Source: Bacteroidota bacterium | Lineage (GTDB): Bacteria; Bacteroidota; Bacteroidia; Palsa-948 | Assembly (NCBI GenBank): GCA_016213435.1 | Contig: JACRAL010000038.1 | Span: 1-42,816 of the forward strand | Direction: 5' to 3' | Length of the DNA stretch: 42,816 nucleotides | In this document: positions 42,648 to 42,816 of the stretch, piece after piece | How the letters are laid out: every line of letters begins with the position of its first letter | How positions within the stretch are numbered: position 1 is the stretch's first letter | The notes under the pieces: generated by a model | Told to the model about the DNA's origin: nothing | What the model saw: only the letters and a program-made list of their open reading frames with translations | The model's database searches: none | Translations under genes and position numbers: made by a program

Positions 42648-42690
42648 AAATGAAACGGATTGCTAATGCGACTCCTATTTAATCGAATGA

Positions 42691-42720
42691 ATTCCTCGCA
42701 GCTCTGCTGCGGGGTGGCTG
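42691..42720. repeat. REP-like hairpin next to the transposase start
   Basis: CCTCGCAGC (42694-42702), TCT loop and GCTGCGGGG (42706-42714): a 9 bp stem with one wobble, flanked by GAATT and TGGCTGTTAG. Lies 47 bp after the M28 stop and just before the transposase promoter. It may end the M28 transcript and may be the left end of the element. Confidence 0.55.
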
Positions 42721-42731
42721 TTAGTGTTTAG

Positions 42732-42739
42732 TATCTTTG
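42732..42739 (+). promoter_or_regulatory. transposase -7 box TATCTTTG, 4 nt from the GTG
   Basis: Exact TAnnTTTG match ending 4 nt before the GTG start, the same spacing as in pyrF and hemJ. Confidence 0.5.
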
Positions 42740-42743
42740 TTGT

Positions 42744-42816
42744 GTGAGTGAGCATATATATAAGCGACACAATAAAAATTTATTGTTGTATCATTTGGTT
42801 TGTCCTATAAAGTACC
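42744..42816 (+). CDS. IS200-like Y1 transposase, 5' end only (cut by the window)
   Basis: The frame opens with GTG at 42744 and reads VSEHIYKRHNKNLLLYHLVCPIKY up to the window edge. The LLLYHLVCPIKY stretch is the N-terminal strand of IS200/IS605-type Y1 (HUH) transposases, from my knowledge of that family (many start with LLxYHxVxxxKYR). In frame upstream is a TAG at 42729-42731, so GTG is the only plausible start. The catalytic HUH motif and Tyr would lie outside the window, so integrity is unknown. The hairpin at 42691 fits the ends such elements use. Confidence 0.7.
   Translation, partial: MSEHIYKRHNKNLLLYHLVCPIKY

Follow-up and report, generated by a model that had tools for sequence, protein, structure and literature searches.

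Contig C197, analysed here in full as a window of 42,816 nucleotides, belongs to a Bacteroidetes MAG (G000) of 3.70 Mb in 216 contigs. It closes with a truncated transposase frame preceded by a hairpin, and nineteen copies of a CCCCTCTCC-type palindrome are scattered along it. The initial annotation regarded the terminal gene as an IS200-like, RAYT-like candidate mobiliser, possibly of these palindromes, which raises the question whether the contig ends in such a mobiliser or in an element of another kind. Here we present the features of the locus, of its copies in the genome and of its relatives. The element is almost certainly a single-gene insertion sequence of the IS200 group (IS200/IS605 family, TnpA_Y1 subclass 1.1) approximately 550 bp long, of which the genome has at least 12-13 near-identical copies. 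It is an ordinary insertion sequence.

Features of the left end

The truncated frame, the hairpin, the promoter box and the GTG start of the initial annotation are all present at positions 42694-42816 (Table 1). The contig stops inside the element because the assembler was unable to cross the repeat. The hairpin has a 9-bp stem that includes one T.G pair; folded as single-stranded DNA it reaches -8.9 kcal/mol (z -3.6), and one of 200 shuffled sequences folded equally well. From its GTG start the truncated tnpA frame reads VSEHIYKRHNKNLLLYHLVCPIKY up to the contig end.

The sequence TANNTTTG is located just upstream of the tnpA start in 14 of the 15 family members compared, in 13 of them at exactly the same distance. 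The position of the TAnnTTTG box suggests a transcript that begins at or near the start codon and would be nearly leaderless, from a Bacteroidetes-type promoter of the element's own. In enterobacterial IS200 the start codon is sequestered by RNA folding. A fold hiding the tnpA start codon was also sought here, and the start of the mRNA folds no better than shuffled sequences.

Table 1. Coordinates of the element, its target and related features (unprefixed positions refer to the window)
Feature	Position	Strand	Remarks
Target motif TTTAAT	42678..42683	+	Host DNA directly 5' of the element; common to 12/12 left-end copies, flanks diverge beyond
IS200-type element, left end, cut by contig end	42684..42816	+	Recurs at 12 contig ends; complete 550-bp copy in G003
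Left-end hairpin CCTCGCAGC-TCT-GCTGCGGGG	42694..42714	+	Fold; identical hairpin in right ends
TATCTTTG, Bacteroidetes -7 box (TAnnTTTG)	42732..42739	+	Starts 12 nt before start codon; same spacing in 13/15 family members, 15 nt in one
tnpA, first 24 codons (IS200-type Y1 transposase), GTG start	42744..42816	+	Translation; 100% match to other copies
Copy with broken frame (L009)	G000:C131:35245-35514		Extra A after tnpA codon 21
Solo hairpin	G000:C84:11407-11441	-	Left foot and right tail fused at the shared hairpin
Second and apparent third related elements	G000:C158:27394, C118:5, C24:25840, C66:60426/C160:109		
Palindrome-flanked subclass 1.2 loci	G000:C173:3760-4332 (L007), G000:C41:49329-49960 (L008), L061, L063, L065, L068, L075, other genus loci		
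TAG-CCACGACCTTAAGGTCGTGG-CAA palindrome	G000:C4:236, C44:4238, C108:1489, C150:25152		Also in G003, G004 and G005
Short RAYT-like fragments	G000:C92:862-1041, C145:8289-8468		Each open for only 83 codons

Copies in the genome and the complete element

The final 139 bases of the window are repeated at 12 contig ends over 138-147 bp, far above chance, with an identity of 100% in 11 cases and 99% in one; the 11 other left ends show no mismatch over the first 110 bp. Apart from the preceding TTTAAT, each copy has a left flank of its own that is unique. A matching right end closes 13 contigs, with the same hairpin approximately 108 bp inside the contig end. These contigs encode EVIQRYIHEQ and carry the 3' end of tnpA (EVIQRYIHEQGTDKGTYKNFHKNQLRLF and the stop), the hairpin, TCATTCAT(T) and then unrelated DNA. 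The 21-nt hairpin is identical in the 12 left and 13 right ends and lies in direct (same-strand) orientation; it is seen only at copies or relatives of the element, at one solo site and in weak relics. The two sets of contig ends are the left and right end of one repeated element, and for this reason the contigs break at these places. In the copy on C131 the tnpA frame is broken (CCTAATAAAG for CCTATAAAG), which reflects either a decayed copy or an assembly error.

The initial annotation had proposed to look beyond position 42816 for the HUH motif, the catalytic Tyr and the right end. The contig ends there, so these were read from other copies, and all three were found. The middle of the element was in no contig found of its own genome; the complete tnpA was therefore read from the sister species G003. 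This genome contains one complete element of 550 bp (96% identical), which consists of TTTAATC, hairpin, 149-codon tnpA, hairpin and ATTCATT. Its right hairpin follows 17 nt past the tnpA stop and there is no tnpB, a layout shared by the right-end contigs. The full window copy would likewise comprise about 550 bp, ending in GGGGTCATTCATT with host DNA after it. No right-end contig matched the flanks of the window insertion in the sister genomes G001 and G004, in which another reading frame, dihydroorotase-like by eye, lies directly downstream.

Further related loci (28, mostly from Bacteroidetes, some from CPR and Firmicutes) were fetched. In relatives with both ends visible, left and right hairpins mostly match within a copy though the stems vary between copies (e.g. 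CCTCGAGGC/GCCTCGGGG), and the matched hairpins are flanked by TTTAATC-AAAGAATT and T(A/C)ATTCATT. A second related IS200 element in G000 has a left end of 71% identity, also after TTTAAT, and the ends of an apparent third element, with hairpin TGCCTCGCAGCTCTGCTGCGAGGT, were observed in the same genome.

Classification of the transposase

The protein family scores as IS200/IS605, in agreement with the annotation as an IS200-like Y1 transposase: 129 bits against NCBIfam NF033573 (IS200/IS605 transposase, cut-off 55) and 119 bits against PF01797. The RAYT model gives 28 bits, below its cut-off of 80, and the protein has Y---Q, not Y---NP. The protein of an intact Y1 gene on contig C124 shows the reverse pattern (RAYT 98.3 bits, IS200/IS605 18). 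PDB matches of the element's TnpA are IS200/IS605 transposases including ISHp608 (best E 3.5e-21).

The motifs of TnpA are NHVH, FWT and YIHEQ; the G003 copy has both NHVH and YIHEQ, the C131 fragment also has NHVH and the right-end contigs YIHEQ. Subclass 1.1 of TnpA_Y1 is characterized by the HuH signature DH[VI]H, Y---Q and W[TS] (Quentin et al. 2018, PMC6006769). The element agrees with it in Y---Q, W[TS], a length of 149 residues and high copy number; in place of DH[VI]H, NHVH is found in most of the group compared and DHVH in a few relatives.

Insertion site and mechanism

Contig C19 closes within a Y1 gene, where ATTTTAAT is followed by the left end; on C84 the right end is followed by CCTGTGGAAGCC. 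Joined, the two flanks give an unbroken 182-codon RAYT frame with 93% DNA identity to the intact C124 paralogue. The restored site is ATTTTAAT/CCTGTGG; owing to a shared T, the cut may instead fall one base further left. With the empty site restored within a RAYT gene, the target TTTAAT and the lack of duplication are read directly from the sequence. The element therefore inserts 3' of TTTAAT without target duplication, with an ambiguity of one base, and this insertion broke a true RAYT gene.

The C19/C84 pair also bears on the possibility that the contig end is an assembly artefact, with the end of a contaminating IS contig fused to C197. The contig does stop at this point, and 11 others stop at the same one. 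This explanation is nevertheless very improbable, as no two left flanks agree and each is unique, C19 and C84 together form a biologically exact insertion and a 96% identical copy exists in a sister species.

In IS608 and ISDra2, TnpA acts as a dimer that binds the hairpins in their folded form; tetranucleotide guides select the cleavage sites, and the element is transferred as single-stranded DNA (PMC7290912, PMC8266576). By homology, a dimeric HUH/Tyr TnpA would bind each end of the present element at its folded top-strand hairpin and excise the element as a single-stranded circle, which would insert 3' of TTTAAT, leaving the target unduplicated. The ends, hairpins, target motif, absence of duplication, copy number and HUH and Tyr motifs are visible in the sequences compared. 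Single-stranded chemistry, guide pairing and present activity are presumed from the characterized relatives.

A solo hairpin on contig C84

A solo site on C84 consists of TTTAAT-CGAACGAATT, one hairpin and TCATTCATT. It occurs once in its own genome and in none of 59 relatives (60 genomes). The site has a private base change (CGAAC for CGAAT), which is evidence against a chimeric assembly of the 22 nt that both ends have in common. It is most likely a recombination scar: if the identical hairpins at the two ends of an ordinary copy recombined, exactly such a sequence would remain. With the correct target motif on its left and exactly one hairpin, it could also be a minimal non-autonomous, PATE-like mobile palindrome inserted or moved in trans by the IS200 TnpA. 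We consider this very unlikely, given the single copy, the absence from the relatives and the sufficiency of recombination. If true, it would show one step from an IS200 end to a REP-like repeat.

Relation to the scattered palindromes

The CCCCTCTCC palindromes occupy about 83-106 places in G000. The hairpin of the element shows no relation to this family, as the initial annotation had recognized. Flanks of approximately 1.5 kb on either side of Y1/RAYT genes were scanned, for genes outside assembly gaps. Next to the Y1 genes of the own genome no CCCCTCTCC palindrome was found. Among 63 Y1/RAYT loci (203 kb, a few fetched twice) only two such palindromes occur, approximately 750 bp and 1.3 kb off and none flanking, compared with four or five expected by chance at the own-genome density of one per ~35-45 kb. 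The sister genome G001 has no detectable Y1 gene, yet contains five of the palindromes. As far as these loci extend, Y1/RAYT genes and CCCCTCTCC palindromes are not linked.

That the element is a RAYT mobilising these palindromes is thus next to impossible. It belongs to the same HUH/Tyr superfamily, a hairpin precedes tnpA, and the palindromes are numerous (83 or more places, allowing up to one mismatch). Against this stand the RAYT score far below that for IS200, the Y---Q motif, hairpins that are direct rather than inverted and are the element's own ends, the many near-identical copies, the 63 unlinked loci and the palindromes of G001. A Y1 gene flanked by a CCCCTCTCC-type palindrome, the check suggested by the initial annotation, was found neither in the genome nor in the genus, and the ends are standard IS200 ends without related palindromes; the suggested role as mobiliser of the nineteen window copies is therefore rejected. 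The result removes the mobiliser proposed for the window palindromes and accounts for the contig break.

Other palindromes and RAYT fragments

In the genus, subclass 1.2 Y1 genes (Y---Q--HH type) often have palindromes on their flanks that are specific to the gene, many of them inverted. These palindromes read either [AG]TTG-CCNNNNNC-TTYA-GNNNNNGG or GTCCCNTNGGGAC followed by a TTTATAG tail. One pattern search for flanking palindromes took 4-nt loops only, which bears on the C41 locus alone. Subclass 1.2 has been listed as without REPs (PMC6006769), and the palindromes possibly represent an unrecognised REPtron-like arrangement. Together with the C84 solo hairpin, these genes bear on the origin of REP-like repeats.

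A dispersed identical palindrome, TAG-CCACGACCTTAAGGTCGTGG-CAA, has a small GGCTTTAGCC-type hairpin at a distance of ~25 nt on either side and resembles the palindromes that flank subclass 1.2 genes. Four species carry it, with 2-12 copies in each genome; G001 has none. Two short RAYT-like fragments (MSVKKEQTEKHRIYYCTFTCYKWLNLFE...) in G000 are near-identical.

Comparison with known systems

With the IS200 group of the IS200/IS605 family, subclass 1.1 (PMC6006769), the element shares a TnpA of ~150 aa, Y---Q, subterminal hairpins, insertion 3' of a short motif without target duplication, many near-identical copies and tnpA as the only gene. It differs in having NHVH, not DH[VI]H, and is preceded by a Bacteroidetes-type promoter box.

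The targets are TTAC for IS608 and TTGAT for ISDra2. In contrast to both, the present element uses TTTAAT and is without tnpB. Its transposase is homologous to theirs (structures 2a6o, 2xm3 and others), and as in IS608 the same hairpin occurs at the left and right ends (PMC7290912).

RAYT / TnpA_REP systems (REPtrons) have in common with the element the HUH/Tyr superfamily and the presence of palindromes, whereas the element fails the RAYT model, has no Y---NP, carries direct instead of inverted hairpins and is multicopy. The C84 solo, like the PATEs (palindrome-associated elements of IS200/IS605; PMC7290912, PMC3119063), keeps ends only; it differs from them in having one hairpin, not two, and a single copy.
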